A stretch of 44,156 nt of DNA, taken from NCBI GenBank assembly GCA_024696945.1, contig JAILGF010000210.1, forward strand, positions 1-44,156. The letters run 5' to 3'. Below the pieces are notes generated by a model. That model ran no database searches, was not told the origin of the DNA, and saw nothing but the letters and a program-made list of their open reading frames with translations. The stretch is from Lachnospiraceae bacterium (lineage in GTDB: Bacteria; Bacillota; Clostridia; Lachnospirales; Lachnospiraceae). Below are positions 13,874 through 28,667 of the stretch, one piece after another (position 1 is the first letter of the stretch; every line of letters begins with the position of its first letter). A program made the translations under genes and the position numbers.

Positions 13874-15532
13874 ATGGAAAAGCAGTTAAACAGAAAAAGT
13901 CAGTTTGCGGTTATGCGTATCATTCCGGTTATGCTTGTTATGGTGATGGCTATCGGTATGGTTCCGGTAAGCGCAAAAACAAAGAAAGCCCAAGATATCC
14001 CGATGGTTGAAGTATCTTCTATAGAGGATCTTGTAAAACGACTGAAAACAGACGGTGAAGAAAAGATAATTTTTTCGACGGATGAGGCGGTATCAGTCAC
14101 AATACCTTCAGGGAAATACAGCGGCAAAAAGCACCTGGTGATCAGGGCTGCCAATGCTTCAGTTACAAACAAGGCTAAGTTTGTCACTGTGAATATCGAA
14201 GCAATAATAGATTACACGGAGAAGGTATCCGGGAACAACATAACCGTATCCTGTGACGGCGCTTGCATTATTGTAAATAATAAGAAGAAGGTAGCGAAGC
14301 TTACGATAGATGCAGGTTATGTCGGAGTGACGGTCAGGAAAAATGCAAAGATCAAAAATCTTGTTTTAAATCACCCGGAAGACTCGGATGCGGTGCTTGA
14401 AACCATGCCGGTCGATGAGGCGGTTTTAATCGGCAAGGAAGTATATGAAAATTACCTCTCATTTTCAGAAGTGATCGATCTGTTTAACATAGCAAGAACA
14501 TACTACTACAAGGAAACGGATCCTGTGAAGCTCATTGAAGGAGCCGCAAGGGGTATGCTTTATTCACTGGAGGATCCTTATTCATATTATTACGATCCTC
14601 AGGAATTTGCGGATATGTGGGAAGATGATGAAGGCAATTATGTAGGTATTGGTGTGGCAATTACCGCCAACTATAATAAGAATATCAGTATCATCAGTCA
14701 AGTTTTCAAAGGAGGTCCTGCCGAGAAAGCAGGTGTGCAGCGTGACGATATTTTATACAGAATCGGAGAGGATTTTTATGTCACTGCTGAAAATCTCGAT
14801 AAGGCGGTCCAGCTTTTAAGGGGTGTTCCGGGAACGGATGTGGATGTTACATTCCTAAGGAATGGGAAAGAGATCACATATACAATTACCCGAAATGAGG
14901 TTAAGGTTAATGAGACCGAAAGCACGATGATAGACGGTGAAATCGGCTATATTGTTCTTTATCAGTTCGCCGGAAGCTGTGAAACTGATTTTGAAAAGGA
15001 ATTGAATGATCTGGTTTCACAGGGAGCAAAGGGGATTATCATAGACCTCAGGGACAACCCGGGAGGCTGGGTTGATCAGGCACAGTATATTGCCGATCTG
15101 TTTATGGATGAAGGAGAACTATGTTATCTGGTATACAATGATGGTTCTGAGGATCACAATATATATCCCACAACAGACGGAAAGGTTGAGGTAAAGCTTG
15201 CGGTGCTGGTTAATGAAAACAGCGCAAGCTCCTCCGAGATCCTGACCGGTGCGCTTAGAGACTGCGCAGAAGCATCGGTAGTAGGTGTCAAAAGCTTCGG
15301 AAAAGGTATTGTTCAGGGAGTATATGGTGTAGGAACCAGAGGAGCCGGATACCAGCTCACGACCGCGCAGTATTTCACTCCGAACGGTACGGCAGTCCAT
15401 GGAATAGGCATCACTCCCGATTATATCGTTGAACTACCGAAGGGTGACAATGGTACGTACAAATTTGCAGATACGGAAAACGACGTACAGCTGAAAAAGG
15501 CGGTCGAGGTTATGAAGGATAAGCTTCAGTGA
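13874..15532 (+). CDS. S41-family C-terminal processing peptidase with PDZ domain, copy 1
   Basis: 552 aa. Residues 1-34 are an export signal (basic start, hydrophobic core, VPVSA). Residues about 42-170 form a repetitive beta-strand region unlike standard CtpA proteins. A helical part follows (SEVIDLFNIARTYYYKETD ending LEDPYSYYYDPQEF). The PDZ domain spans about 255-340 (GIGVAI, GGPAEKAGVQRDDIL). The protease domain has IIIDLRDNPGGWV at 388-400 and the Ser-Lys pair Ser452 (NSASSSEI) and Lys477 (KSFGKG), 25 residues apart as in E. coli Tsp. It should act outside the membrane as a Ser/Lys endoprotease that recognises C-termini. AGGAGAG precedes the ATG. A close paralogue follows directly. Confidence 0.93.
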   Translation: MEKQLNRKSQFAVMRIIPVMLVMVMAIGMVPVSAKTKKAQDIPMVEVSSIEDLVKRLKTDGEEKIIFSTDEAVSVTIPSGKYSGKKHLVIRAANASVTNKAKFVTVNIEAIIDYTEKVSGNNITVSCDGACIIVNNKKKVAKLTIDAGYVGVTVRKNAKIKNLVLNHPEDSDAVLETMPVDEAVLIGKEVYENYLSFSEVIDLFNIARTYYYKETDPVKLIEGAARGMLYSLEDPYSYYYDPQEFADMWEDDEGNYVGIGVAITANYNKNISIISQVFKGGPAEKAGVQRDDILYRIGEDFYVTAENLDKAVQLLRGVPGTDVDVTFLRNGKEITYTITRNEVKVNETESTMIDGEIGYIVLYQFAGSCETDFEKELNDLVSQGAKGIIIDLRDNPGGWVDQAQYIADLFMDEGELCYLVYNDGSEDHNIYPTTDGKVEVKLAVLVNENSASSSEILTGALRDCAEASVVGVKSFGKGIVQGVYGVGTRGAGYQLTTAQYFTPNGTAVHGIGITPDYIVELPKGDNGTYKFADTENDVQLKKAVEVMKDKLQ

Positions 15533-15557: not shown

Positions 15558-17216
15558 ATGGAAAAGATGTTAAACATAAAAAGCAGAGCTGTTGTTATGC
15601 GCATAATCCCCATTATGCTGATTTTGGTGATGATCGTCGGAGCAGTTCCGGTAAGCGCAAAAACAAAGCAAACCCGGGAGATCCCGTCAATTGAGGTATT
15701 CTCTAAAGACGAGCTTATAGAACAGCTGGAAACAGACGGTGAAGAGACAATAAATTTTTCCACCTATGAGGCCGGAACGATCACAATACCATCCGGGAAA
15801 TACAGCAGCAAAAAGCATCTGGTGATCAGGACAGACTATGCTTCGATCATAAATAAGGCTAAGTTTGCCACCATAAATATTGAGGCTGTTACGGATTACA
15901 CGGAGAAGGTTTCCGGAAATAAAATAACCGTATCCGGTGACGGTGCAATTATCAACGTGTATAAAAAGAAGAAAGTAGCAAAGCTTACAATTAATGCGGC
16001 CAATGTCAGATTATCCGTTGATAAGAGTGCCAAGATCAAAAAACTGGCCATAGCCCCCACGGAAGAACTTGATGTAGCTCTTGGAACTATGATGGCCGAT
16101 GAGATTACGGTAATCAGCACAGCTGAGTATGAAGACTTTATGTGGTTTTCGGAGGTTATGGACCTGTTTGACAATATAAGGGCTAGCTATTATAAGGAAA
16201 CAGATCCGGTGGAGCTCATGGAAGGAGCTGCACGCGGCGTACTTTGGTCACTAGAGGATCCGTATTCATATTATTATAATCCCCAGGAATATTCTGATAT
16301 GTGGGCGGAAGACCAAGGAAACTACGTAGGTATCGGTGTAATGATCAACTCTGACATGAATACCAATATCAGTACCATCTGCCGTGTTTTCAAAGGAAGC
16401 CCTGCCGAGAAAGCCGGTGTACAGCGCGGGGATATTTTGTACAAGGTCGGTGAGGATTTCTATGTAACTGCCGAAAATATTACAAACGCGGTCAAAATTA
16501 TCAAGGGACTTCCCGGAACGGATGTAGATGTTACTTTCATTAGGAATGGAGAGGAGATTACATATACAATTACCCGAAATGAGATTAGTGTTAATGAAGC
16601 AGAAGGTACAATGATAGATAATGAGATCGGTTATATTGCCCTTTACTCATTTGCCGGGACCTGTGAATTTGAATTTGAAGCGGAGCTGAACAACCTTGTT
16701 TCTCAGGGTGCAAAGGGGATTATTATAGACCTCAGAGACAATACCGGAGGCTGGGTCGATCAGGCTCATTATATTGCCGATCTATTCATGGATGCGGGAG
16801 AACTGTGCTATCTGGTTTACGGTAATGGTTATGAGTCCCATGGTGAATACCCCACAACAGATGGTAAGGCAGATGTAAAGTTGGTGGTATTGATCAATGA
16901 GAACAGTGCCAGCTCCTCAGAAATCCTGACAGGGGCACTGCGTGACTGTGCTGATGCTTCGATAGTAGGAGTCAAAAGCTTCGGAAAGGGTATTGTTCAG
17001 ATGGTCCACGGTATAGGAACCAGAGGTGCCGGATTCCAGCTTACAACTGCAGAGTACTTCACGCCTAATGGCACAGCGGTTCACGGAATAGGGATTACAC
17101 CCGATTATATCGTTGAGCTTCCGGAGGGCGACAACGGTATGTATAAATTCGCAGATACGAAAAACGATGTACAGCTGAAGAAAGCGGTTGAGGTTTTAAG
17201 GGAAAAGCTTCAGTGA
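15558..17216 (+). CDS. S41-family C-terminal processing peptidase with PDZ domain, copy 2
   Basis: Also 552 aa and collinear with the preceding gene over its full length, starting 25 nt after that gene's stop with AAGGAG upstream. Signal peptide, beta-strand N-region, PDZ domain and protease domain are all kept: IIIDLRDNTGGWV, NSASSSEILTGALRDC and VGVKSFGKGIVQ. Catalytic Ser452 and Lys477 are intact, so both copies should be active. The two differ most in the N-terminal beta region and in the segment before the PDZ domain, and least around the active site. That pattern suggests an old duplication followed by change in substrate or partner recognition. A shared transcript is likely; no T-run terminator is seen before the RNA promoter at 17228. 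Confidence 0.93.
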   Translation: MEKMLNIKSRAVVMRIIPIMLILVMIVGAVPVSAKTKQTREIPSIEVFSKDELIEQLETDGEETINFSTYEAGTITIPSGKYSSKKHLVIRTDYASIINKAKFATINIEAVTDYTEKVSGNKITVSGDGAIINVYKKKKVAKLTINAANVRLSVDKSAKIKKLAIAPTEELDVALGTMMADEITVISTAEYEDFMWFSEVMDLFDNIRASYYKETDPVELMEGAARGVLWSLEDPYSYYYNPQEYSDMWAEDQGNYVGIGVMINSDMNTNISTICRVFKGSPAEKAGVQRGDILYKVGEDFYVTAENITNAVKIIKGLPGTDVDVTFIRNGEEITYTITRNEISVNEAEGTMIDNEIGYIALYSFAGTCEFEFEAELNNLVSQGAKGIIIDLRDNTGGWVDQAHYIADLFMDAGELCYLVYGNGYESHGEYPTTDGKADVKLVVLINENSASSSEILTGALRDCADASIVGVKSFGKGIVQMVHGIGTRGAGFQLTTAEYFTPNGTAVHGIGITPDYIVELPEGDNGMYKFADTKNDVQLKKAVEVLREKLQ

Positions 17217-17227
17217 CAAAAAAATTC

Positions 17228-17256
17228 TTGCATTTTCAGAAACTCTATGATATATT
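17228..17256 (+). promoter_or_regulatory. Promoter of the structured RNA
   Basis: TTGCAT, a 17-nt spacer and TATATT, with the expected start near 17263, just before the first stem of the RNA. Confidence 0.62.
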
Positions 17257-17262
17257 AATGCT

Positions 17263-17477
17263 TACATGAATTCTAAACTATTCATGCAATATTGCCCACC
17301 ATTTTGGTTAAGCCCATACGGACAGGCGGGGCGACTGCCGCGGGTGGCGAAAGGCCACATTAGGTAACATCGCTTCTGAATAGGTCAATGCGTGCAGCCG
17401 GAGTGTTTTCGGTACTGTGGATAGTTTATTACTATGTTAGGATTTTCAGGACAGATGTTATCATCTGTCCTTTTATT
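17263..17477 (+). ncRNA. Structured non-coding RNA, about 215 nt (possibly raiA-motif type)
   Basis: The 396-nt gap between the S41 pair and speA holds no gene but has a promoter, extensive pairing and its own terminator. The strongest helix is long-range: 17274-17283 (TAAACTATTC) pairs with 17419-17428 (GGATAGTTTA), 10 bp with one G-U, closing a ~135-nt core. Inside are GTGGC/GCCAC with a GAAAG loop (17344-17358) and the GC-rich block GGCGGGGCGACTGCCGCGGG (from 17326). CATGAAT/ATTCATG (17265-17271/17280-17286) competes with the closing stem. Length, self-contained promoter and terminator, and ornate core fit a stand-alone RNA such as raiA, or a leader controlling speA. I cannot confirm a family from memory. 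The core lacks the hallmarks I know of tmRNA, SRP RNA and RNase P RNA. Confidence 0.68.
17449..17477 (+). terminator. Intrinsic terminator of the structured RNA
   Basis: GGACAGATG/CATCTGTCC is a perfect 9-bp stem with loop TTAT, followed by TTTTATT. Confidence 0.87.
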
Positions 17478-17522
17478 ATCTGAAAAATTATAAGCACAAA
17501 CGAGAGTCATTTAAGTGGTGAA

Positions 17523-17541
17523 CTCCGGATAAAATCCGGAG
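17523..17541 (+). promoter_or_regulatory. Hairpin in the speA leader
   Basis: CTCCGGAT and ATCCGGAG pair perfectly around AAA. No T-run follows. It lies 72 nt before the speA start. Between it and speA only a weak promoter-like pair (TTGTGA ... ATATAT) can be seen, so the polyamine operon promoter is uncertain. Confidence 0.4.
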
Positions 17542-17612
17542 GGTGCAAGAAAAATTAGGTCAGTTGTGAATAGTTGTAACAAAGATATATATAGAAAGGC
17601 CTGGAACCTGCT

Positions 17613-19064
17613 ATGAACATAGAAGCACAAAAGCATGCTCCGGTGTATGAAGCACTTGAGAGATTCAGAAAACAGAGAATAGTCCCCTTTGATGTGCCGG
17701 GACATAAGCGCGGAAGGGGAAACCCCGAGCTAAAAGAGCTCCTGGGGGAGAAATGTGTCAGTCTTGATGTAAACTCCATGAAGCCGCTTGATAATCTCTG
17801 CCATCCCATGTCGGTGATCAAGGATGCGGAAGAGCTGGCAGCAGAGGCATTCGGAGCCGACCATTCCTTTTTTATGGTCGGGGGAACAACTTCGGCGGTA
17901 CAGGCTATGGTGCTTACGGCATGCCGTGCGGGAGATAAGATCATCCTTCCGAGAAACGTGCATAAGAGTGTTATTAATGCTCTGGTGCTCTGCGGTGCAG
18001 TACCCGTATATGTTAACCCTGAGGTAGATAAGAAGCTGGGCATAGCACTAGGAATGGAGCTTGAAGAGCTTGAGAAGGCGATCAAAGAGAACCCCGATGC
18101 AGTCTGTGTTTTTGTAAATAATCCCACTTATTACGGAATATGTTCTGACTTAAGAGGTATAGTTAAGCTGGCACATGAGAACAAGATGCTCTGCCTGGTT
18201 GATGAAGCTCACGGAACACATCTTTATTTTGAAAAGAGCCTTCCCGTATCGGCTATGGAGGCAGGAGCGGATATGGCATCAGTATCTATGCACAAGTCGG
18301 GCGGAAGTCTTACACAGAGCTCTTTGCTTCTGGTAAACAAGACGGTTAACTGGGAATATGTGGCTCAGATAATCAATCTTACACAGACGACAAGTGCTTC
18401 CTATCTGCTTCTTTCGAGTCTTGATATTTCAAGAAGAAACTTAGCGCTGAGAGGCGCGGAATCCTTCAGCAAGGTTAAGGATATGGCGGAATATGCTCGC
18501 GCCGAGATAAATTCAATAGGCGGATATTATGCATATGGAGCCGAGATAGTTAACGGCAAGAGCATATATGATTTTGATGTAACGAAATTATCGGTATATA
18601 CAAGGGATATCGGTCTTGCAGGCATTGAGGTCTATGATCTTTTGCGTGATGAGTACGATATCCAGATAGAATTTGGTGATATCGCAAATATTCTGGCATA
18701 TATTTCAATAGGTGACAGGATACAGGATATTGAGCGTCTGGTCGGAGCACTGGCGGATATAAAGAGGCTTTATTCCAAGGATCCTGCATCCCTTATGGCA
18801 GCCGAATATATAGCTCCGAAGGTCTGTGTTTCACCCCAGAAGGCATTTTATTCGGATAAGACTGCACTTCCGATAGCGGAAACCGCAGGCAGGATATGCA
18901 GTGAGTTTGTTATGTGTTATCCTCCCGGAATACCGATCTTAGCTCCCGGCGAGCTTATAACGGAGGATATTATTGAGTACATCATGTACGCTAAGGAAAA
19001 GGGCTGCTCCATGCAGGGTACCCAGGACCCGTACATGGAGTATCTACAGGTACTTGAGAAATGA
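17613..19064 (+). CDS. speA: Arginine decarboxylase (Orn/Lys/Arg decarboxylase, aspartate-aminotransferase fold)
   Basis: 483 aa, the size of Bacillus-type SpeA. It lacks the N-terminal wing domain of the large inducible decarboxylases. The PLP-binding lysine is Lys228 in SVSMHKSGGSLTQSS; DEAHG (Asp197, His200) stacks on the cofactor; the N-terminal FDVPGHKRGRG and the C-terminal YPPGIPILAPGE are family signatures. The fold alone does not separate arginine, lysine and ornithine use. Agmatine deiminase and N-carbamoylputrescine amidase 8 kb downstream strongly favour arginine to agmatine. It is the first gene of a polyamine operon; speE follows after 11 nt. The spacing of the AAAGG ribosome site is long, about 13 nt. 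Confidence 0.92.
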   Translation: MNIEAQKHAPVYEALERFRKQRIVPFDVPGHKRGRGNPELKELLGEKCVSLDVNSMKPLDNLCHPMSVIKDAEELAAEAFGADHSFFMVGGTTSAVQAMVLTACRAGDKIILPRNVHKSVINALVLCGAVPVYVNPEVDKKLGIALGMELEELEKAIKENPDAVCVFVNNPTYYGICSDLRGIVKLAHENKMLCLVDEAHGTHLYFEKSLPVSAMEAGADMASVSMHKSGGSLTQSSLLLVNKTVNWEYVAQIINLTQTTSASYLLLSSLDISRRNLALRGAESFSKVKDMAEYARAEINSIGGYYAYGAEIVNGKSIYDFDVTKLSVYTRDIGLAGIEVYDLLRDEYDIQIEFGDIANILAYISIGDRIQDIERLVGALADIKRLYSKDPASLMAAEYIAPKVCVSPQKAFYSDKTALPIAETAGRICSEFVMCYPPGIPILAPGELITEDIIEYIMYAKEKGCSMQGTQDPYMEYLQVLEK

Positions 19065-19075
19065 GGTAAGGTTTA

Positions 19076-19930
19076 ATGGAGCTCTGGTTTTCTGAATTCC
19101 ATACCGATAAAGTTAAATTATCGGTTAAGATAGAAAAGCATTTATTCGGTGAGCAGACCGATTTTCAGAGATTGGACGTGTTTGAATCCGAGGAGTTCGG
19201 AAGGTTCATAAGCTCGGACGGAAGCATCGTTTTTTCGGAAAAGGATGAGTTTACGTACGATGAGATGATAGTTCATGTTCCGATGGCCGTTCACCCGAAT
19301 GTGGAAAAGGTTCTGGTCATCGGCGGCGGTGACGGCGGAGTTGCCAGAGAGCTTTCATATTACGATGAGATAAAACAGATAGACGTTGTTGAACCTGATG
19401 ATGCTTTTATTTCGGTGTGCAAGGAATTCTTCCCGGACAATGCAAGAGGACTTGAGGATCCGAGAGTTAAGGTTTATAACAGGGACGGCTTGAGATTCTT
19501 AAGGGATAAGCTCGGAGTTTACGATCTTATTATAAATGATGCGATAGACCCGTTGGGACATACCGCAGGTCTCTTTACGAAAGAGTTTTACGGGAACTGC
19601 TACAGGGCCTTAAGAGATGACGGTATCATGGTATATCAGCACGGAAGTCCCTTCTACGATGAGGATGAGGATACCTGCAGGGCCATGCACAGGAAGGCAA
19701 GCCACAGCTTCCCGATAAGCCGTGTATATCAGGCACACATTCCGACATGTGCATCAGGTTATTGGCTGTTCGGCTTCCTTTCAAAGAAGTTCCATCCGCT
19801 GACGGATCTTGATGCGGATAGGTGGAACAAGAGAGGCATTAAGACCTGGTACTATACAACAAATCTTCACCAGGGAGCATTCATGCTGCCAAAATATGTT
19901 GAAGATATGTTAGAGGAAGAAGAAGACTGA
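19076..19930 (+). CDS. speE: Spermidine synthase homologue (aminopropyltransferase family)
   Basis: 284 aa. The whole length aligns in pattern with bacterial SpeE: MELWFSE start, the small N-terminal beta domain with EQTDFQRLDVFESEEFG, SEKDEFTYDEM, then the Rossmann fold with GGGDGG at 83-88 and VVEPDDAF at 104-111. Canonical enzymes transfer aminopropyl from decarboxylated SAM to putrescine and carry a D-S/T-x-D/E-P-x-G active-site motif. Here it reads NDAIDPLG (Asp155 kept, Ser/Thr replaced by Ala). The YQHGSPFY block keeps Gln188. No AdoMet decarboxylase gene is in the window, and the neighbours encode a different route to spermidine, so its true substrates are open. Its stop is followed immediately by a 69-nt palindrome. 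Confidence 0.85.
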   Translation: MELWFSEFHTDKVKLSVKIEKHLFGEQTDFQRLDVFESEEFGRFISSDGSIVFSEKDEFTYDEMIVHVPMAVHPNVEKVLVIGGGDGGVARELSYYDEIKQIDVVEPDDAFISVCKEFFPDNARGLEDPRVKVYNRDGLRFLRDKLGVYDLIINDAIDPLGHTAGLFTKEFYGNCYRALRDDGIMVYQHGSPFYDEDEDTCRAMHRKASHSFPISRVYQAHIPTCASGYWLFGFLSKKFHPLTDLDADRWNKRGIKTWYYTTNLHQGAFMLPKYVEDMLEEEED

Positions 19931-19999
19931 GGTGACAGTGGGGACGGTTCTCTTTGTCATCTCGTTGAGATGACAAAGAGAACCGTCCCCACTGTCACC
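19931..19999. repeat. Perfect 33-bp palindrome (REPIN-like, GGGGACGGTT family) inside the polyamine operon
   Basis: Arms 19931-19963 and 19967-19999 are exact reverse complements around a 3-nt GTT loop. The core GGGGACGGTTCTCTTTGTCA recurs in a decayed form at 12901-12964. It begins at the base after the speE stop and ends 26 nt before the dehydrogenase ATG, with no T-run. In RNA it would make a very long hairpin between two genes of one operon. Confidence 0.9.
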
Positions 20000-20025
20000 A
20001 GATAAAAAAACAGGAGGGTATAAAA

Positions 20026-21285
20026 ATGAGCAGATTATTGGTTATCGGTTGCGGGGGTGTGGCACAGGTTGCCATTTCTAAGTGCTGTCAGAATTCAAAA
20101 ACATTTACGGAGCTTTGCATTGCCAGCCGTACAAAGTCCAAATGCGATGCTTTAAAGGAAAAGCTTCAGCCTAAGACGGATACTGTTATCACTACCGCAA
20201 AGGTAAATGCAGATTTCAAGGATGAACTGGTAGCTCTCATCAAGGAGTACAAGCCCGATGCAGTGCTTAACGTTGCACTTCCTTATCAAGACCTTACCAT
20301 TATGGATGCTTGTTTAGAGTGCAAGGTTGATTACATTGATACGGCAAATTTTGAGCCCGAGGACACGGACGATCCCGAGTGGCGTGCCATATATGAAAAG
20401 AGATGCAAGGAGAAAGGCTTTACCGCTTACTTTGATTACTCATGGCAGTGGGCATATCAGGACAGGTTTAAAGAGGCAGGTATCACAGGCTTACTCGGCA
20501 GCGGCTTCGATCCCGGTGTAACGAGTGTATTCTCGGCATATGCATTAAAGCATTATTTTGACGAGATAGATACCATTGACATTCTTGACTGCAACGGCGG
20601 TGACCACGGATATCCTTTTGCTACAAACTTTAATCCCGAGATCAACCTCCGTGAGGTTTCAGCAAACGGCTCTTACTGGGAGAACGGCCACTGGGTTGAG
20701 ACAAAGCCCATGGAGATAAAGAGGGAGTATAACTTCGAGGGTGTTGGTATGAAGGATATGTATCTTCTTCATCACGAGGAGATCGAGTCCCTTGCAAAGA
20801 ATATCCCCGGCGTAAAGAGAATCAGGTTCTTTATGACCTTTGGACAGAGCTATCTTACGCATATGAAGTGTCTGGAAAATGTCGGAATGCTTTCTACTTC
20901 ACCCATTAATTTTGAGGGCAAGGAGATTGTTCCCATCCAGTTCTTAAAGGCCCTGCTGCCCGATCCGGCATCGTTAGGACCGAGAACCGTAGGAAAGACC
21001 AATATCGGCTGTATCTTTACCGGACGTAAGGACGGAAAAGAGAAGAAGATCTACATCTACAATGTTTGTGATCATCAGGAGTGCTACAAGGAGGTTGGCT
21101 CACAGGCTATTTCCTATACTACCGGTGTTCCTGCCATGATCGGTACTGCTCTTGTTATTTCAAAGAAGTGGAACAGGGACGGTGTATTTACCGTAGAAGA
21201 GTTCGATCCCGATCCCTTCATGGATATGCTTAATGAGTACGGACTTCCCTGGAAGGTTGATGAGGATCCTGTACTGGTGGATTAA
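20026..21285 (+). CDS. Carboxynorspermidine/carboxyspermidine dehydrogenase (saccharopine dehydrogenase family)
   Basis: 419 aa, typical of CASDH. The N-terminal nucleotide-binding fold has LLVIGCGGVAQVAI at 4-17, followed by IASRTKSKCDAL, the usual NADPH-preferring arginine region. Family blocks YKPDAVLNVALPYQDLTIMDACLE, DYIDTANFEP, LGSGFDPGVTSVFSAYA and NGGDHGYPFATNFNPEINLREV follow. CASDH reductively condenses aspartate beta-semialdehyde with putrescine (or diaminopropane) to carboxyspermidine (or carboxynorspermidine) in the cytosol. The partner decarboxylase nspC lies 1.3 kb downstream. An ideal AGGAGGG site precedes the ATG, so translation should be efficient despite the upstream palindrome. 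A related cyanobacterial-type enzyme acts on agmatine instead of putrescine and cannot be excluded by sequence reading alone. Confidence 0.93.
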   Translation: MSRLLVIGCGGVAQVAISKCCQNSKTFTELCIASRTKSKCDALKEKLQPKTDTVITTAKVNADFKDELVALIKEYKPDAVLNVALPYQDLTIMDACLECKVDYIDTANFEPEDTDDPEWRAIYEKRCKEKGFTAYFDYSWQWAYQDRFKEAGITGLLGSGFDPGVTSVFSAYALKHYFDEIDTIDILDCNGGDHGYPFATNFNPEINLREVSANGSYWENGHWVETKPMEIKREYNFEGVGMKDMYLLHHEEIESLAKNIPGVKRIRFFMTFGQSYLTHMKCLENVGMLSTSPINFEGKEIVPIQFLKALLPDPASLGPRTVGKTNIGCIFTGRKDGKEKKIYIYNVCDHQECYKEVGSQAISYTTGVPAMIGTALVISKKWNRDGVFTVEEFDPDPFMDMLNEYGLPWKVDEDPVLVD

Positions 21286-21292
21286 ATAATCA

Positions 21293-22501
21293 ATGGATAG
21301 ATCAAAGATTCAATGGACAGTAAGATATACTTTTTTGAATGTAGCCTATTTTGCGGCATTTTGTACCATACATGCTTATGCAGCGGTATATCTTCTGTCA
21401 AAAGGATTCAGTAATACGGAAGTCGGTGTGCTTTTGGCGGTGGCAAACGTCACATCTGCGATCCTGCAGCCGATAATAGCCGACATTATAGATAAACCCG
21501 GACCGCTGACAAACAGGCGCTTCATTATGATATCGGTAATGATAATCCTGTTCGGTTCGCTTGTTTTAATGCTCGCGCCGTCTAACAACGCCGTAATCTT
21601 CTTTATATATGCGCTGATATACATGATACAGTTTGCATATCAGCCCGTAATGACGGCATTATGCTTTGAGTACCAAAAAGCAGGGTGCAACATCATGTAT
21701 GGTCTGGCAAGAGGACTAGGTTCGGCAAGCTTTGCTTTTACTTCCGTGTTTATAGGCGGGATTGTCGAGAAAAACGGAGTGGCGATACTTTTGTGGGTGA
21801 ATATCGTAACTATGATCATTTCACTGCTTATTGCGTTTACTTTTAAAAAACCGATAAATTCGGCAGCTGACGGAGCAACCGTAAAAGCTTCAGCCGGATC
21901 CGGTCAGAAGAAAAGTAATCTGGCGACGTTTATCCGTGATTATCCTGCATTTGTACTTTTTCTTTCGGCAACGATATGTTTTTTCTTTGCCCACAATATG
22001 ATCAACGATTTTATGATCAGGATAATCAATAATCTGGGCGGAAATGAGACGGAACTCGGATTTGCCAATTTCCTGCAGGCGATACTGGAATTGCCGGTTA
22101 TGGCGCTTATTGCCATTGTACTTAAAAAGATATCTGCGGAAAAACTTTTAATGATATCCGGTGTGGCATTCTTTGTGAAGATACTTTTGCTTGTTTTTGC
22201 AAAGGGGATGCCCATGATGTATGTAAGCCAGTCGGTGCAGATATTTGCATATGCCGTTTTTATACCGGCAGGCGCTTATTATGTAAGCAAAACGATGGAT
22301 GAACAGGACCAGGTTAAGGGGCAGGCATTTATTACCAGTGCCATAACGATCGGCGGAGTTTTCTCAAATCTGATAAGCGGCGTGATACTCGATCATTTCG
22401 GAATACTGACCATGCTTATTACCGGAAGTGCGGTGTGCGCAGTCGGAGTAGTGATAGCATTTATCGCAATGACCAGGCTGCCACACAGAAAAGTTAAATA
22501 A
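21293..22501 (+). CDS. MFS transporter, candidate polyamine-pathway transporter
   Basis: 402 aa with about 12 membrane segments in two halves of six, split by a short charged loop near residue 205. It has the overall pattern of the LacY/nucleoside-H+ symporter-like MFS group (FLNVAYFAAFCTIHAYAAVYLLSKGFSNTEVG at the start; GLARGLGSASFAF in helix 5; a repeat of the pattern in the second half). The start lies 7 nt after the dehydrogenase stop and has no good ribosome site of its own, so translation is probably coupled. Location in the polyamine operon suggests import or export of agmatine, putrescine or spermidine; this is inferred only from context. Confidence 0.88.
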   Translation: MDRSKIQWTVRYTFLNVAYFAAFCTIHAYAAVYLLSKGFSNTEVGVLLAVANVTSAILQPIIADIIDKPGPLTNRRFIMISVMIILFGSLVLMLAPSNNAVIFFIYALIYMIQFAYQPVMTALCFEYQKAGCNIMYGLARGLGSASFAFTSVFIGGIVEKNGVAILLWVNIVTMIISLLIAFTFKKPINSAADGATVKASAGSGQKKSNLATFIRDYPAFVLFLSATICFFFAHNMINDFMIRIINNLGGNETELGFANFLQAILELPVMALIAIVLKKISAEKLLMISGVAFFVKILLLVFAKGMPMMYVSQSVQIFAYAVFIPAGAYYVSKTMDEQDQVKGQAFITSAITIGGVFSNLISGVILDHFGILTMLITGSAVCAVGVVIAFIAMTRLPHRKVK

Positions 22502-22511
22502 TAGAAAACAA

Positions 22512-22532
22512 GGGCTCCGGAAAACGGAGCTC
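22512..22532 (+). promoter_or_regulatory. Intercistronic hairpin between MFS gene and nspC
   Basis: GGGCTCCG pairs with CGGAGCTC (one G-T) around GAAAA. It is followed by TTATAG rather than a T-run, so at most it is a weak attenuator or processing site. Confidence 0.4.
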
Positions 22533-22604
22533 TTATAGTAAATCAAAGCACGTTACAGAGGTGCAAACGGGCACTATGCCAAAGATGAGAAAGTTGGAAT
22601 TCTT

Positions 22605-23762
22605 ATGTTTAAAAATGTACAGACGCCTTGCTATATAGTGGATGAGGCAAAAATAAAAAAGAACCTTGAGATATTAAAAAGCGTGGAAGAGGAGAGCGGA
22701 GCACATATCCTGCTTGCCCAAAAGGCTTTTTCGATGTTTTCGCTTTACCCGCTTATCGGGCAGTATATAAGCGGAACCACAGCGAGCGGATTATATGAAG
22801 CAAAGCTTGGGTACGAAGAAATGGGCAAGGAAAACCATGTGTATGCACCGGCATACAGACCGGAACATATGGAAGAGCTGGTAAAAATCTGCGACCATAT
22901 TATATTTAACAGCTTTGCACAATATGACAAACATAAGGAAACAATAAAAAGGGCAAATGAGTTGAAAAACTCGCCAACCCATGTCAGTGCCGGTATCCGT
23001 ATCAACCCCATGTGCTCCACGCAGGAGGGGCATGAAATATACGATCCCTGTGCTTACGGTTCAAGGCTCGGAGTAACAAAGGAAAACTTTAGGTACGATG
23101 CCGATTTCGGCGAAGGCGGCATCGAAGGTCTTCATTCCCATACTTTGTGCGAGCAGAATTCAGACGCATTGATCACTACGTTTAAGGCTATAGAGGAGCA
23201 GTTCGGAGATATATTATATAAGGTAAAATGGCTGAACCTGGGCGGCGGTCATCATATTACAAGAGATGACTATGATGTGGCGAGTCTCATAGAGCTTGTA
23301 AAATACATCCGTGAAAAATATGATGTCGAGGTGTATCTGGAGCCCGGCGAGGCTATAGCGCTTAATGCCGGTTACCTTGTTACCGAGGTTATGGATAAGG
23401 TTAAGAACGGCATGGAGATTTTGATCCTTGATGCATCTGCGGCCTGTCATATGCCCGATGTTCTTGAGATGCCTTATCGACCTCCGTTAAGAGGCGGCTA
23501 TGAAGCAAACGAAAAAGCATATACATACAGATTATCTTCTCTTACCTGCCTTGCAGGTGATGTGATAGGTGATTACAGCTTTGAGAACGAGATCAATATC
23601 GGTGACAAGCTGGTATTTGAAGATATGGCCATTTATTCAATGGTGAAAAACAATACGTTCAACGGTATTCCGCTCCCTGATATACTGCTGTTAAAGGAAG
23701 ACGGAACTACTCTGAAAGTGAAATCCTTTGGGTATGAGGATTTCAAAGGAAGATTATCATAG
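22605..23762 (+). CDS. nspC: Carboxynorspermidine/carboxyspermidine decarboxylase
   Basis: 385 aa, alanine-racemase-fold PLP decarboxylase. Near the start TPCYIVDEAKIKKNLEIL and ILLAQKAFSMFSLYPLI carry the PLP lysine (Lys40). The barrel continues with SAGIRINP, GSRLGVTKENF, GIEGLHSHTLCEQN, LNLGGGHHITRDDYD and the phosphate-binding VYLEPGEAI. The C-terminal beta domain has DASAACHMPDVLEMPYRPPL and CLAGDVIGDY, both typical of NspC and distinct from diaminopimelate or ornithine decarboxylase. It removes the carboxylate from carboxyspermidine to give spermidine (or norspermidine), the step after the dehydrogenase encoded upstream. Confidence 0.95.
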   Translation: MFKNVQTPCYIVDEAKIKKNLEILKSVEEESGAHILLAQKAFSMFSLYPLIGQYISGTTASGLYEAKLGYEEMGKENHVYAPAYRPEHMEELVKICDHIIFNSFAQYDKHKETIKRANELKNSPTHVSAGIRINPMCSTQEGHEIYDPCAYGSRLGVTKENFRYDADFGEGGIEGLHSHTLCEQNSDALITTFKAIEEQFGDILYKVKWLNLGGGHHITRDDYDVASLIELVKYIREKYDVEVYLEPGEAIALNAGYLVTEVMDKVKNGMEILILDASAACHMPDVLEMPYRPPLRGGYEANEKAYTYRLSSLTCLAGDVIGDYSFENEINIGDKLVFEDMAIYSMVKNNTFNGIPLPDILLLKEDGTTLKVKSFGYEDFKGRLS

Positions 23763-23783
23763 GAAGGTTAGGAGTATAATAAT

Positions 23784-24335
23784 TTGTTATATTTAATACG
23801 ACATGGAAAAACGGATTGGAACGTAAGACATAAAATTCAGGGACAGACGGATATACCGTTAAATGATGAAGGAAGAAAAATGGCTGCGGAAGCAGCTGAA
23901 AAATACCGGGATATCAATTTTGACGTGTGTTACTGCTCTCCCTTGGTAAGAGCAAGAGAAACTGCTGAGATCCTGCTTGACGGACGGAACATTCCGATCA
24001 TATACGATGACAGGCTTAAGGAGTATGGATTTGGCATTTATGAAGGAACAGAAAACAGTTTTTCTATTCCCGATTGTCCCGTGAATGAGATGTTCTTCCA
24101 TCCCGAGAATTATAAATTAAAGGTAGAAAAAGGGGAAAGCCTTGATGAGCTTTTTGACAGAACGGGAGCATTTTTAAGAGAGGCAGCGTTACCTCTTGTA
24201 AACGACGGAAAAGATGTGCTGATCGTCGGTCACGGCGCTATGAATTCCTGTATCATCTGTCAGCTAAAGTATAATTCGGACAGGACAAAATTCTGGGCAG
24301 AAGGAATCCCTAATTGCGAACTGCTAAAAGTATAA
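23784..24335 (+). CDS. Histidine phosphatase family protein (phosphoglycerate-mutase-like)
   Basis: 183 aa starting at a TTG (23784), with TTAGGAG 9 nt upstream; no ATG is near. The catalytic RHG motif is at 6-8 (LIRHGKTDWN), followed by GQTDIPLNDEGR, YCSPLVRARETAEI with the second arginine, LKEYGFGIYEGT with the acid, and GHGAMNS with the second histidine near residue 149. All active-site residues of the branch are present. Members dephosphorylate small phosphoesters; the substrate is unknown. It is 21 nt downstream of nspC, so it is probably co-transcribed, although a role in polyamine metabolism is not evident. Confidence 0.9.
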   Translation: MLYLIRHGKTDWNVRHKIQGQTDIPLNDEGRKMAAEAAEKYRDINFDVCYCSPLVRARETAEILLDGRNIPIIYDDRLKEYGFGIYEGTENSFSIPDCPVNEMFFHPENYKLKVEKGESLDELFDRTGAFLREAALPLVNDGKDVLIVGHGAMNSCIICQLKYNSDRTKFWAEGIPNCELLKV

Positions 24336-24342
24336 GTGAACT

Positions 24343-24371
24343 TTGACACGGACGTTAAATTATGATATGAT
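24343..24371 (+). promoter_or_regulatory. Sigma-A promoter for the TerD-like gene
   Basis: A consensus TTGACA, 17 nt and TATGAT directly follow the phosphatase gene. The start point would be near 24378, giving a 160-nt leader. Confidence 0.72.
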
Positions 24372-24389
24372 AAAAGAAGCTTGCAGCTA

Positions 24390-24420
24390 GGGGGATTTAC
24401 TTCTTGGGCGAAAATCCCCC
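24390..24420 (+). promoter_or_regulatory. Leader hairpin of the TerD-like gene
   Basis: GGGGGATTT and AAATCCCCC pair perfectly over 9 bp with a 13-nt loop, about 12 nt after the predicted transcription start. No T-run follows. It could protect the 5' end or bind a regulator. Confidence 0.5.
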
Positions 24421-24537
24421 GATATCGCAGGCATGCCACAGCTAATAATGCTTACTTCAACCTATAGAAAACAGCATTATGATATCGTGGCTTTTTTTAA
24501 AATTTTTAGGATCGCCCATATTTATCAGGGAGCTGCT

Positions 24538-26598
24538 ATGGAAATTATATTCAAGGATTACCTGTTTTCGAAGCACATATTGGTAAATGACAAGGGAACC
24601 GATGAAAACGCATTTGAAACGCTCTTCTCCATTGCGAACTTATTTAATATACGTATAAAGGAAGGCCAGGGAATAGTTCATCGGGAAATGATAGAGTTTA
24701 TTTCCCGGCTGGTAGGTGAAAAGGTACCGGAGCCTTTTTATAAGGGTTTTCCGGCGAGTGTAAAAAAGCTATCGTCGGATAAGCTTCTGTTCGACCAGAT
24801 GGTGCATTACACCGTAACCTACGGGTTTGGGAATTTCTCGGAGGCCGGTCATTCTCTCATGGAGGAGAATTTTGAACGTATCGCTTTCAAGGAGAAAGCC
24901 GAGATAAAGGATTTCGTCATACTGAACGAAACAGATGCAGAAAAAAAACTTGCCGGGTTTGTTGATGACATGTTCTGCGGTACCAGACCGCTTTCAGAGC
25001 CTCAGTTTAAGGTTATATCCTCTTTTTTAAGAGAATACAGCCACCGCCCCTCAAAATGTGCATCAAAGAATCTTGCCATAAGGCTTCTTGTGGAAAACCG
25101 GGCGCTGTATTTTGCCCGTTTTCTTCAGCTTCCCGACATTACCAAGGTTGTTGAGGATCTTAACTATAGGCTTTATGATAATACCGATGTTAAGAAACTG
25201 AACCTGAAGAACCAGGACAGAAAGCTTATCATTTCGGTTATAGATTATATGTTTGGCAAAGGTATTTCAAAGGATATCGACAGGGACATCATCAGCTGCT
25301 TTGAAAGAAAGGCCGTTTGGAGCGGGCTCCTTCATCATCTGCATTATAAACCTAAAAACGCCAAAGCCTCAGAGTTTGTCCGGCTTATGAGAGGGAATGA
25401 AAACAATTCTGTTTATTCCGGCTTTGAAAGTGAGATGAGCAAAGGAAACATCGCCGAGGCGGTTGAGGTCCTTAAAAAGGGTAAGGGTTCTGGATCGATA
25501 CTCCGTAATCTTGATTATCTTATCAGTAGATGCAGGAATGAGGAGGATGAAAAGGCCGTCCTTGACAGCATTTCTTCATCGAATGTTATAATTCTCCTGC
25601 AGCTTCTTATAAAGTATTCTTCAAAGTATCGCGGGAAAGAAAGCCGGACTTTTAAATTTACAAGGTTTGAAAGACTTAAGGTATATTCCGAAACAGAGGA
25701 AGATGTTGTCAGAAGAAAAAGCTTTTTAACCGAGGAGCAGACCAAGAGATTAAGAGATTTTATCCATCGGAAGCTTAAAGAGGTATTAAAGAACCGTTTG
25801 GGTAAGGTTTATATCGAGAGCAAAATGAGAAATATGGCTCTGCCTCTTCAGGAGACCGCGTCCTCCGGCGGACTTGGAGTTCTTGCAAAGGGAAGCAGGA
25901 TTCCTATTCCGGATTTTAAAAAGATAAGGGCTTTTACCTATTGGGAAAAGGTTAATGATATAGATCTTTCTGCTTTTGGACTCGCTGAGAGCGGGACAAG
26001 AATAGAGTTTTCCTGGAGAACAATGGCGGATAATCAATCTGAAGCCATTACGTATTCCGGAGATCAGACCAGCGGATTTAAAGGTGGTTCAGAGTATTTT
26101 GACATTAATCTTGATGAGTTTAAGAAATGGTATCCTCAGATAAGATATATCATATTCTGTGATAATGTTTTTTCACCGCTGAGATTTTCGGATTGCTTCT
26201 GTAAGGCGGGATATATGATAAGGGATAACGAGGATTCGGGTATGGTTTTTGAACCAAAGACCGTTGCTTCGTCCTTCCTGATCAATTCCGACAGCACGTT
26301 TGCATATTTGTTTGGCATAGACCTTGAGATGAACTCGCTCATCTGGCTTAATATGAACAAGGACAGCTATGAAGCCGTTGCGGGAGAATCCTCCATGACA
26401 TTTTTGCTCGAGTATTTCTCTGTAACGGATATCGTAAACGTTAAATCCTTCTTTGAAATGGCCGCTTCCGAGATAGTGGATGATCCTAAGCAGGCGGATG
26501 TTGTGGTATCGGATTCTGTCAGCGAGTCAGAGATAAAAGAGGGCGCAAGCCTTATCCACAGCTACGATTTTGAGAAGATGACAGCGATCATGGGGTAG
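24538..26598 (+). CDS. Large cytoplasmic protein with C-terminal TerD-like domain
   Basis: 686 aa from the ATG at 24538 (GGGAG 7 nt upstream); the frame is open back to 24433 without a good site. There is no signal peptide or membrane span. Residues 1-410 are largely helical and rich in Lys, Glu and Leu, and I do not recognise them. Residues about 445-605 resemble the TerD fold: LAKGSRIPIPDFKKIRAFTY, then NDIDLSAFGLAESG, ITYSGDQTSGFKGGSEYFDI and FEPKTVASSFLINSDSTFAYLFGIDL, with the repeated Asp positions expected for calcium binding. TerD proteins are linked to tellurite resistance and stress or phage response; the role here is unknown. It sits between nspC and aguA but has its own promoter and could drive aguAB. 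Confidence 0.65.
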   Translation: MEIIFKDYLFSKHILVNDKGTDENAFETLFSIANLFNIRIKEGQGIVHREMIEFISRLVGEKVPEPFYKGFPASVKKLSSDKLLFDQMVHYTVTYGFGNFSEAGHSLMEENFERIAFKEKAEIKDFVILNETDAEKKLAGFVDDMFCGTRPLSEPQFKVISSFLREYSHRPSKCASKNLAIRLLVENRALYFARFLQLPDITKVVEDLNYRLYDNTDVKKLNLKNQDRKLIISVIDYMFGKGISKDIDRDIISCFERKAVWSGLLHHLHYKPKNAKASEFVRLMRGNENNSVYSGFESEMSKGNIAEAVEVLKKGKGSGSILRNLDYLISRCRNEEDEKAVLDSISSSNVIILLQLLIKYSSKYRGKESRTFKFTRFERLKVYSETEEDVVRRKSFLTEEQTKRLRDFIHRKLKEVLKNRLGKVYIESKMRNMALPLQETASSGGLGVLAKGSRIPIPDFKKIRAFTYWEKVNDIDLSAFGLAESGTRIEFSWRTMADNQSEAITYSGDQTSGFKGGSEYFDINLDEFKKWYPQIRYIIFCDNVFSPLRFSDCFCKAGYMIRDNEDSGMVFEPKTVASSFLINSDSTFAYLFGIDLEMNSLIWLNMNKDSYEAVAGESSMTFLLEYFSVTDIVNVKSFFEMAASEIVDDPKQADVVVSDSVSESEIKEGASLIHSYDFEKMTAIMG

Positions 26599-26668
26599 GT
26601 TATAACAAAATTGACAGCAAAATGAGATTAATATCGATAACGAAATATCGAAATCCGGAGAAAACGGA

Positions 26669-27790
26669 ATGAAAATATTAAAAACACTTCCAAAAGCAGA
26701 CGGTTATTATATGCCCGGGGAATTTGAGCCCCACAGGGGAACGATAATGATATGGCCCGAAAGGCCCGGGTCATGGCCTTTTGGGGCTAAAGCTGCAAGG
26801 AAGGCTTTTACCAAAATAATAAAAACCATTGCTGAAAGCGAGGAAGTATTTGTTGCAGTAAGCAGGAAGGGCTTTGAATCCGCAAAAGATGCTCTTGGCA
26901 GTACAGATAATGTTAAGCTTTTTACCGCCGAAACTGATGATGCATGGGCCAGAGACGTTGCACCGACATTTGTCAGGAATAGCCTTACCGGTGAGGTCAG
27001 AGCCGTTAACTGGTCCTTTAACGCATGGGGAGGAGCATACAACGGGCTTTATGCTTCCTGGGCGAAGGACGATGCGTTTACTTTATATTTTGCAGAGAAG
27101 GAAGGGTATCCGGCATATGATGCAGCGCCTTTTGTGCTGGAGGGCGGTTCCATACATTCCGACGGTGAGGGAACGATACTGGTTACGGAAGAATGTCTGC
27201 TAAGTCCCGGAAGGAATCCGGATTTAAATAAGGAAGAAATAGAGTACAGATTAAAGGAATATCTTGGTGCGGAAAAGGTTATCTGGCTTCCCGGCGGAAT
27301 ATATAATGATGAAACCGACGGCCATGTTGATAATATATGTGCTTTTATAAGACCGGGAGAGGTGGTTCTCGCCTGGACGGATGATCAAAATGATCCCCAG
27401 TATGCTCTTTCGGCTGCAGATCTTAAGGTTCTTGAAACGGAGACCGATGCCAAGGGGAGACTGTTAAAGGTACATAAGCTTCCTATTCCGAAAAACCACG
27501 TTTTTATAGGTGAAGAAGACCTTAAAGGATACGAGTTTGAAGAAGGTGAGGATGAGAGAGAGGTCGGAGAGAGACTTGCCGCATCCTATGTGAACTTCTA
27601 TTTTTCAAACGGAGCGGTAATACTTCCGGCATTTGGCGGAGAAAATACTGAAAGTGATGATGAGGCTGCGGAGATAATGCGGGGGCTCTGCCCTGAAAGA
27701 AAAGTGGTTCAGATCCCGGCGAGGGATATACTGCTCGGGGGCGGGAATATCCACTGCATAACTCAGCAGATACCACGAGGAGACAGGTAA
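26669..27790 (+). CDS. aguA: Agmatine deiminase
   Basis: 373 aa, typical length. It hydrolyses agmatine to N-carbamoylputrescine and ammonia through a covalent Cys intermediate. Visible residues: [21 protein letters not shown] at 17-37, [12 protein letters not shown] with Asp96, [14 protein letters not shown] with Glu158, ETDGHVDN with Asp217 and His219, and the nucleophile Cys363 in [17 protein letters not shown] at the C-terminus. All are intact. GGAG lies before the ATG. aguB starts one base after this gene's stop, so the two are translated as a unit. With speA, these genes form the plant/bacterial ADC-AIH-CPA route from arginine to putrescine. Confidence 0.96.
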
Positions 27791-27791
27791 G

Positions 27792-28667
27792 ATGAGGAAT
27801 GTAACGGTTGCGGCTATACAGATGCAGTGTAGCCAACAAGTTCAGGAAAATCTGGAAAAAGCGGAAAAAATGATCAGAGAGGCAGCAGGACTCGGAGCTC
27901 AGGTAATCCTTCTTCCGGAGCTGTTTGAAAGGGAATATTTCTGCCAGCAGAGAAGATATGATTTTTATGAGTATGCACTGCCTGTATCGGAAAACCCTGC
28001 TGTAAGGATGGGAATGAGACTGGCGGCAGAGCTTAAGGTCGTGCTTCCTATAAGTTTTTATGAGAAGGACGGGAATGTTTTATTTAATTCCTTGGCGTGG
28101 ATAGATGCTGACGGCTCTCTGCTTGGAATCTACAGAAAAACCCATATTCCCGACGATCATTTTTATCAGGAAAAATTCTACTTTACGCCCGGAAATACGG
28201 GATTCCTGGCATTTGATACGAAATACGGACGCTTTGGGGCAGGTATATGCTGGGATCAGTGGTTCCCGGAGACTGCAAGGGCGCTGGCTCTTCAGGGAGC
28301 AGAGGTGATATTCTACCCGACCGCCATCGGATCGGAGCCCATTCTTGAGAATGACAGTATGCCCCACTGGAGAAGATGTATGCAGGGACATGCCGGAGCC
28401 AACTTAGTTCCCGTGGTTGCGGCCAACCGGATAGGCAGGGAAGATGTGGAACCGTGCGAGGCCAATGCGGGACAGAAATCTTCATTGCTGTTTTACGGAT
28501 CATCCTTTATTACGGATGAAACCGGAGAGGTTTTAAAAGCTGCTTCAAGAGATAAAGAAGAAATATTGGTTCAAACCTTTGATCTTGACATAATAAAAGA
28601 AAACAGGCTCGCATGGGGAATATTCCGTGACAGGAGACCTGAGATGTATCTGGGAATAGCAAGGTAA
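27792..28667 (+). CDS. aguB: N-carbamoylputrescine amidase
   Basis: 291 aa, nitrilase superfamily (C-N hydrolase). The Glu-Lys-Cys triad is present: Glu43 in LLPELFER, Lys116 in YRKTHIPDDHFYQEKFYF and Cys153 in GAGICWDQWFPE. The IPDDHFYQEKFYFTPG and YPTAIGSEP blocks are specific to N-carbamoylputrescine amidases rather than beta-ureidopropionases. It releases ammonia and CO2 from N-carbamoylputrescine to give putrescine, the co-substrate of the carboxyspermidine dehydrogenase. GAGGAG in the end of aguA is the ribosome site. This is the last gene of the locus, followed 6 nt later by a strong terminator. Confidence 0.96.
   Translation: MRNVTVAAIQMQCSQQVQENLEKAEKMIREAAGLGAQVILLPELFEREYFCQQRRYDFYEYALPVSENPAVRMGMRLAAELKVVLPISFYEKDGNVLFNSLAWIDADGSLLGIYRKTHIPDDHFYQEKFYFTPGNTGFLAFDTKYGRFGAGICWDQWFPETARALALQGAEVIFYPTAIGSEPILENDSMPHWRRCMQGHAGANLVPVVAANRIGREDVEPCEANAGQKSSLLFYGSSFITDETGEVLKAASRDKEEILVQTFDLDIIKENRLAWGIFRDRRPEMYLGIAR

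Follow-up and report, generated by a model that had tools for sequence, protein, structure and literature searches.

Genes and features at the locus

The window, by which we mean the whole stretch of 44,156 nt analysed here, contains a speA-type arginine/lysine decarboxylase gene at 17613-19064 on the forward strand, on which all features described below also lie unless stated otherwise. The product of this gene gave only LdcC/ADC-type NCBIfam matches, below their cut-off. Further same-strand genes, presumably of the same operon, occupy positions 19076-28667: speE (19076 to 19930), a carboxynorspermidine synthase-like gene (from 20026; NCBIfam score 408.9, under the cut-off of 800), an MFS gene (from 21293), nspC (from 22605), two ORFs with no assigned function (23784-24335 and 24433-26598), aguA (from 26669) and aguB (from 27792). 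The NCBIfam assignments of speE, nspC, aguA and aguB were above cut-off. The cluster holds both speE and the carboxynorspermidine route, although a search for SpeD of family TIGR03331 gave no match in the window's genome, the assembly of which is 86% complete. Immediately upstream of the RNA considered here lies a pair of neighbouring 552-aa ORFs (13874-15532 and 15558-17216), which look by eye like paralogous S41-type peptidases.

speA is the first gene 3' of an RNA at 17263-17477, whose predicted fold is more stable than those of shuffled sequences (z = -3.22; 1 of 200 shuffles was equally good). A scan located an intrinsic terminator with a perfect 10-bp stem and a T tract at 17448-17476; two terminator-like sites were found in 17150-17660, the second one on the minus strand, compared with 0.2 in shuffled sequences. 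No ORF of at least 60 aa occurs on either strand of 17216-17511. An earlier reading of this DNA from the sequence alone (the sequence-only reading) had described a structured RNA without an ORF that ends in a perfect terminator, and our analysis agrees on each of these points. The promoter that it had also described was not confirmed: a candidate read by eye, TTGCAT-17-TATATT (17228-17233 and 17251-17256), has 8 of 12 consensus matches, which is under the threshold of a scan that gave no promoter on the forward strand of 17150-17660. Between the terminator and speA, a perfect hairpin with no T tract (CTCCGGAT/ATCCGGAG) is present at 17523-17541.

The same reading had proposed a 10-bp closing helix, here called P1, between 17274-17283 and 17419-17428. 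The ten standard pairs do exist, one of them a U-G pair, but compensating changes were absent from the seven genus members compared: none of the ten pairs showed a two-sided change, and the pairing level of 83.1% was equalled or exceeded in 205 of 500 shuffles. The departures from P1 were greatest in loci L034 and L035. The 5' strand of P1 has an alternative partner in a local hairpin, CATGAAT/ATTCATG (17265-17271/17280-17286), which appeared in the single-sequence folds of all seven genus members and in the minimum free energy (MFE) structure of the unfinished transcript (to 17463), as expected of the competing 5' hairpin that had been suggested.

Relation to Rfam families

Rfam family RF02440 (SpF59_sRNA) matched positions 17293-17341 (49 nt) with 53.9 bits, above the gathering score of 37.2, and was the only Rfam family to reach its gathering score anywhere in the window. 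There was accordingly no match to tmRNA, SRP RNA or RNase P RNA, in keeping with the sequence-only reading, nor to 6S RNA, the T-box leader or known riboswitch families. A SAM-I-like aptamer was also rejected, as the window had no match to a SAM family and 40 related loci had none at gathering score. raiA RNA occurs in Clostridia and is of roughly the same size as the window RNA; the suggestion of a raiA-type RNA fails nonetheless, because the raiA covariance model gave no match in the window up to an E value of 5, and none was found in the 40 related loci. RF02440 was the sole family at this RNA in those loci, where it was detected in 19 of 20 and 16 of 20 in two sets; two further matches in the second set, to tRNA and tmRNA, were located elsewhere. 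In locus L211 the RNA is followed by an ORF that by eye is IS200-like, and an Rfam tmRNA match lies at 2020-2367.

Rfam models RF02440, also described as 'ldcC RNA', as an sRNA of 54 nt; among 150 genomes from the window's family, 29 carried it. A second copy in the window's own assembly (G000:C145:17-65) is cut by a contig end and may derive from another strain or from contamination. The name given by Rfam is what links RF02440 to the pneumococcal sRNA F59. F59 has been listed between SP0915 and SP0916 of Streptococcus pneumoniae with a length of 82 nt, and later as srn235/F59/Spd_sr49, M7, spanning 327 nt; 'Lung' is the entry beside it in a table on roles in virulence. SP_0916 is reported to be an arginine decarboxylase.

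Structure and covariation of the full-length RNA

Reading outward from the RF02440 core in homologues revealed conservation far beyond 54 nt, and typical homologues are much longer than the Rfam fragment and multi-branched. From 5' to 3', the typical plan begins with the 5' strand of P1, followed by P2 (GACC/GGUC), which encloses the hairpins P2a and P3. The P3 loop reads CAUACGGACA and is followed by UGCCG and hairpin P4. P5 (UUAUUGA/UCAAUAA) then encloses P6 (GAG/CUC) and P8 (UUUUAUAAG/CUUGUGAAA), and this domain is capped by P7 and P9, which are variable or missing. A linker leads to the 3' strand of P1, which often ends in AGACUCU. Without P1, model matches in 100 relatives were 134-248 nt long.

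An initial attempt to align 62 long flanks with MAFFT produced no usable consensus, and an alignment of 23 hand-picked relatives took its place. In this alignment, which was not fitted to a structure, 91.2% of the paired cells were complementary, compared with 84.1% in shuffles, and 91 cells carried double changes, compared with 34; neither value was reached in 500 shuffles. Two-sided changes were seen in 15 of 47 pairs (2 of 500 shuffles as high), and the number of further pair types was only mildly raised (35 of 500 shuffles). We also examined 100 relatives, chosen by hand to thin near-duplicates, in an alignment that was made by the model and therefore leans towards the structure. Here 29 of 47 pairs showed two-sided change, none of 500 shuffles was as high on any of five measures, and 94.3% of cells were paired, compared with 37-46% in slid controls. 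One pair of P3 switches from G-C to C-G (55 and 40 of the 100 sequences, respectively), and in P4 all five pairs showed two-sided change with 88.5% of cells paired. P5 and P8 rest mainly on conservation, because P5 is almost invariant and most changes in P8 are one-sided, a single pair showing two-sided change. The CGGAC columns of the P3 loop are 97-99% identical and the GCCG columns of UGCCG 99-100% identical; a CGG-CCG pseudoknot between the two is possible, and they vary too little for a test of it.

P1 lies outside the family model, and its flanks were compared separately. In 170 loci, the mean pairing energy of the flanks was -23.2 kcal/mol, compared with -17.2 kcal/mol when the 3' flanks of other loci were swapped in, and at the 5% level the flanks beat their own shuffles in 67% of loci and the swapped flanks in 39%. 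Because of this modest flank pairing and the absence of two-sided change in the window's genus, P1 is the least supported helix of the family. The sequence-only reading had named a lack of covariation in relatives as a result that would tell against it; covariation is indeed lacking, among the seven genus members, in the helix that it singled out, while the RNA as a whole covaries among both the 23 and the 100 relatives.

Distribution

The family model (R1), which has 168 positions and was trained on 23 sequences, was run with strict filters on three genome samples. It matched 20 of 398 in the phylum sample, 48 of 391 in the class sample and 37 of 398 in the sample from another class (that of G215). 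The three samples overlap in part, and the window's genome is among the matches of the first two. The RNA occurred in 26 families of one class sample and nine of another; it is thus widespread, yet absent from most genomes sampled. Scores exceeded 100 bits in 57 of 75 matches, the training sequences being in part among those searched. The later locus list omits two of these 75 matches, namely L002 (the copy at the contig end) and L051 (whose score equals that of L015), together with L101-L110, which were not in that scan. Among loci selected by the presence of speA, only 45 of 70 had a match. Carriers with a species name include Roseburia inulinivorans DSM 16841 and Coprococcus catus (L051). 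A BLAST search of plasmid records gave a single match, in a 2.7-Mb record of Paenibacillus cellulosilyticus, and phage records gave none.

Genes downstream of the RNA

We identified the first recognised gene downstream of the RNA in 96 distinct loci, excluding the window and the speA-selected loci L031-L110. The initial tally was 33 carboxynorspermidine synthase genes, 29 speA, 19 speD, 13 potA and two loci with none, so that 94 of the 96 loci precede polyamine genes. Inspection of translations moved L154 from none to potA (start at +307) and L208 from speA to speD (start at +145), which gave a corrected tally of 33 carboxynorspermidine synthase, 28 speA, 20 speD, 14 potA and one none. Elsewhere, L085 had been filed under speE after its speA start was overlooked. 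The speD assignments were supported by NCBIfam TIGR03331, and those of potA by NF043075 in L142 (565.8 bits, cut-off 550) and TIGR01187 in L143 (359.7 bits, cut-off 355.6). In three operons, potA is followed by two permease-like genes and a gene for a PotD-like protein (by eye). Of the operons with carboxynorspermidine synthase and nspC, four had no speA among the same-strand ORFs of the stretch fetched and one had both. The 28 family loci found through RF02440 precede speA (20), speD (7) or none of these (L011); the last, which scores 107 bits, precedes a gene that by eye resembles an M28 peptidase. The family thus shows the covarying structure in the leader of functionally related genes that characterizes riboswitches, P1 of the window's genus being a helix that does not covary.

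Pairing of P8 with the terminator

A terminator-like hairpin precedes the gene in 166 of 169 leaders; L094, L044 and L025, which have none, were omitted from the pairing analysis, as was the named record L218. For each leader, we determined which 20-nt segment pairs best with the terminator's 5' arm. The 3' strand of P8 was in the top 5% of segments in 123 of 166 leaders and was the best segment in 103. Among 188 control terminators located at other places in these loci, the corresponding numbers were six and two, and the median pairing energy was -11.05 kcal/mol for the leaders compared with -4.65 kcal/mol for the controls. When only distinct terminator arms were counted, 100 of 135 reached the top 5%; the number was 71 in a previous analysis of 88 loci, which omitted L094, L044, L025 and L084. 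The misses include the pot leader L142, for which the script chose a hairpin start too far upstream. The terminators vary by clade and the pairing follows them: CAUCGACUUG pairs with CAAGCGAUG in L142, and CAUCAACUUG pairs with CAAGUGAUG in the speD leader L117.

P8 and this antiterminator are mutually exclusive because both use the same nucleotides. Such mutually exclusive folds, the mark of an expression platform, were found across the family, with two reservations. The pairing was weak in one cluster (L194, L195 and L211-L217), and, although the MFE structure of the complete transcript showed the terminator in 164 of 166 leaders, just 32 of the 166 had the antiterminator in that of the unfinished transcript. 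The latter figure, for which no control was run, would fit a strong aptamer fold but is not supporting evidence.

The window RNA as a shortened variant

The R1 match in the window covers 17292-17385 (49.8 bits, E = 5.6e-10). Pairs of P2 (17294-17297/17329-17332) and, inside it, P3 (17312-17314/17325-17327) were verified in the window, and P2a (17298-17300/17306-17308), also inside P2, was recognised by eye; the homologues of all three covary in the 100 relatives. The conserved P3 loop, CATACGGACA, lies at 17315-17324, its possible pseudoknot partner TGCCG at 17336-17340 and the P4 hairpin (GTGGC/GCCAC) at 17344-17358. These elements are nearly invariant in the genus, with a difference in P2 of L031. 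By eye, P6 and the 5' strand of P8 are missing from the window and from L031-L036, and the window does not have the three-way P5-P6-P8 domain. Judged from its sequence, the copy in the window belongs to the R1 family as a shortened variant, not as a typical member.

The counterpart of the P8 3' strand, CATCGCTTCTGAA (17368-17380), would form the 5' half of the antiterminator, and the region of the terminator 5' arm, TTCAGGACAGATG (17445-17457), its 3' half. The former (CAUCGCUUCUGAA in the predicted pairing) is the best partner in the leader for the arm UUCAGGACAGAUG, with 11 standard pairs and -11.0 kcal/mol, and the equivalent pairing is also the best of the leader in L031-L036. Unconstrained folding of the transcript to 17463 gave the 5' hairpin and the antiterminator, and that of the full transcript gave P1 and the terminator; the second fold offered by the 5' hairpin in the sequence-only reading is therefore plausibly half of a two-state switch. 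Single-sequence folding alone misleads here, because the window's own MFE structure lacks P2 and P3, the homologous fold being about 5 kcal/mol costlier (-65.8 compared with -70.6).

Other loci depart from the typical plan in their own ways. L030 and L104 appear by eye to be shortened in a different manner. L065 and L106 retain the 3' domain and lack the 5' core (by eye), the reverse of the loss in the window, and each half of the RNA seems to have been lost independently of the other, in different lineages. Upstream of speA in L039, L041, L047 and L055, a start resembling CATGAAT and a terminator of the CAGGTGA type are visible by eye with no model match, and loss of the aptamer from these loci is possible.

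Proposed mechanism and alternatives

On this sequence evidence, the RNA is probably the 5' leader of polyamine genes and a transcription attenuator, most likely an OFF riboswitch that responds to a polyamine end product, for which spermidine is the best candidate. In the OFF state, the conserved fold (the long P1, the P2-P4 domain and, in most relatives, P5-P8) would sequester the P8 3' strand (CACUUGUGAA in relatives), or its counterpart in the window, and the terminator before the first gene would form. In the ON state, the fold would not be stabilised, the P8 3' strand would pair with the 5' arm of the terminator, and the blocked terminator would allow the genes to be transcribed; in the window, the P1 5' strand would also move into its local hairpin. 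The signal that stabilises the fold would be the polyamine end product. The structure and its covariation in relatives, the gene context and the mutually exclusive pairing are read directly from the alignments and loci; direct ligand binding, the identity of the ligand, the OFF direction and sensing by the shortened window copy are what we infer. The position before polyamine genes in 94 of 96 loci, together with the terminator/antiterminator switch, lends good support to the earlier suggestion of a new speA regulator.

Spermidine is favoured as the signal because it is common to all these operons, whereas none of agmatine, decarboxylated SAM and cadaverine connects every one of them. The same cis-acting attenuator might instead answer directly to another signal, for example putrescine, agmatine, decarboxylated SAM or a metal ion: the leader is often followed first by speA or speD, and RNA can bind many cations. 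We consider this unlikely, as neither agmatine nor decarboxylated SAM connects directly to the pot transporters or to the operons that have only carboxynorspermidine synthase and nspC; putrescine is compatible with these and would be the next best candidate after spermidine. Control by a protein or a leader peptide, with no small molecule bound by the RNA, has precedents in attenuators of other pathways, and polyamines broadly influence translation, but the conserved loops and the multi-branched covarying fold make it improbable here. In 96 of the 100 aligned relatives, stop codons occur in all three frames inside the P5-P8 block (the other four have one open frame), so that a conserved ORF does not cross this block; the argument against a leader peptide is limited to ORFs that would do so.

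The label that Rfam and the pneumococcal surveys attach to F59/srn235 would make the RNA a trans-acting sRNA that stands alone. This reading has in its favour the strong terminator at the end of the RNA and the 'Lung' entry of F59, but we regard it as highly improbable: location upstream of polyamine genes and a pairing that excludes the terminator are marks of a cis-acting leader. The sequence-only reading was probably wrong to call the RNA stand-alone; attenuation of a leader, with the terminated RNA as its short product, is more likely. A secondary role in trans may exist beside regulation in cis. A separate doubt concerns the window's genus, where the RNA might be a decaying remnant that no longer senses anything. 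The shortened 3' domain, a score of 49.8 bits in a family where most matches exceed 100, a P1 that does not covary, and the leaders L047 and L055, which have no model match and in which by eye little remains beyond the start and the terminator, all point that way. The genus nevertheless retains P2-P4 and the core, the 5' hairpin in all seven members, and an antiterminator pairing that in the window and L031-L036 no other part of the leader surpasses, and we think decay the less plausible account by a good distance. With P6 and the P8 5' strand missing, the window copy may respond differently or be decaying.

Comparison with known polyamine-related RNAs

A 2023 paper judges earlier evidence for the sensing of polyamines by RNA unconvincing and itself describes only a rare SAM-I variant (PMC10853860). 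This spermidine riboswitch, a four-stem structure for which 13 representatives were aligned, is tied to speE, speB and ldcC and acts as an OFF switch by termination (PMC10853860). The family described here shares the proposed OFF/termination logic but has a different fold with no SAM match. The odc1 motif is likewise a structured leader of genes for polyamine-pathway decarboxylases; it differs in that it is found in Alphaproteobacteria, consists of one hairpin with a pseudoknot and a uORF, and acts at translation start (PMC8632094). The potE motif, described with odc1 in the same survey of structured RNAs, is also unlike our family (PMC8632094). None of five polyamine terms occurred in another survey of structured RNAs (PMC11109978). 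As for RF02440 itself, the window passes its gathering score and, going by the name, the pneumococcal sRNA lies in the same place, upstream of SP0916; the family described here adds P3 to P9, P1 and the expression platform to the 54-nt sRNA model and, unlike RF02440 as filed, also precedes speD, carboxynorspermidine synthase and potA. A literature search that left aside preprints, most subscription journals and supplements found no account of this RNA as a riboswitch, and none of any kind beyond the lists of pneumococcal sRNAs.

These findings bear on how widely bacteria sense polyamines with RNA, which has been an open question. The RNA may represent a widespread, unrecognised riboswitch class of Bacillota, with a fold unrelated to the SAM-I-derived one, that senses spermidine and shuts off both its synthesis by two routes and its uptake, and that has stayed hidden because Rfam holds a 54-nt streptococcal 'sRNA' piece of it; we see the case for and against so broad a claim as evenly balanced. 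If it is true, a pneumococcal 'sRNA' would be recast as a metabolic leader. The RNA supplies a complete, testable candidate switch that is far larger and more widespread than the 54-nt database fragment.
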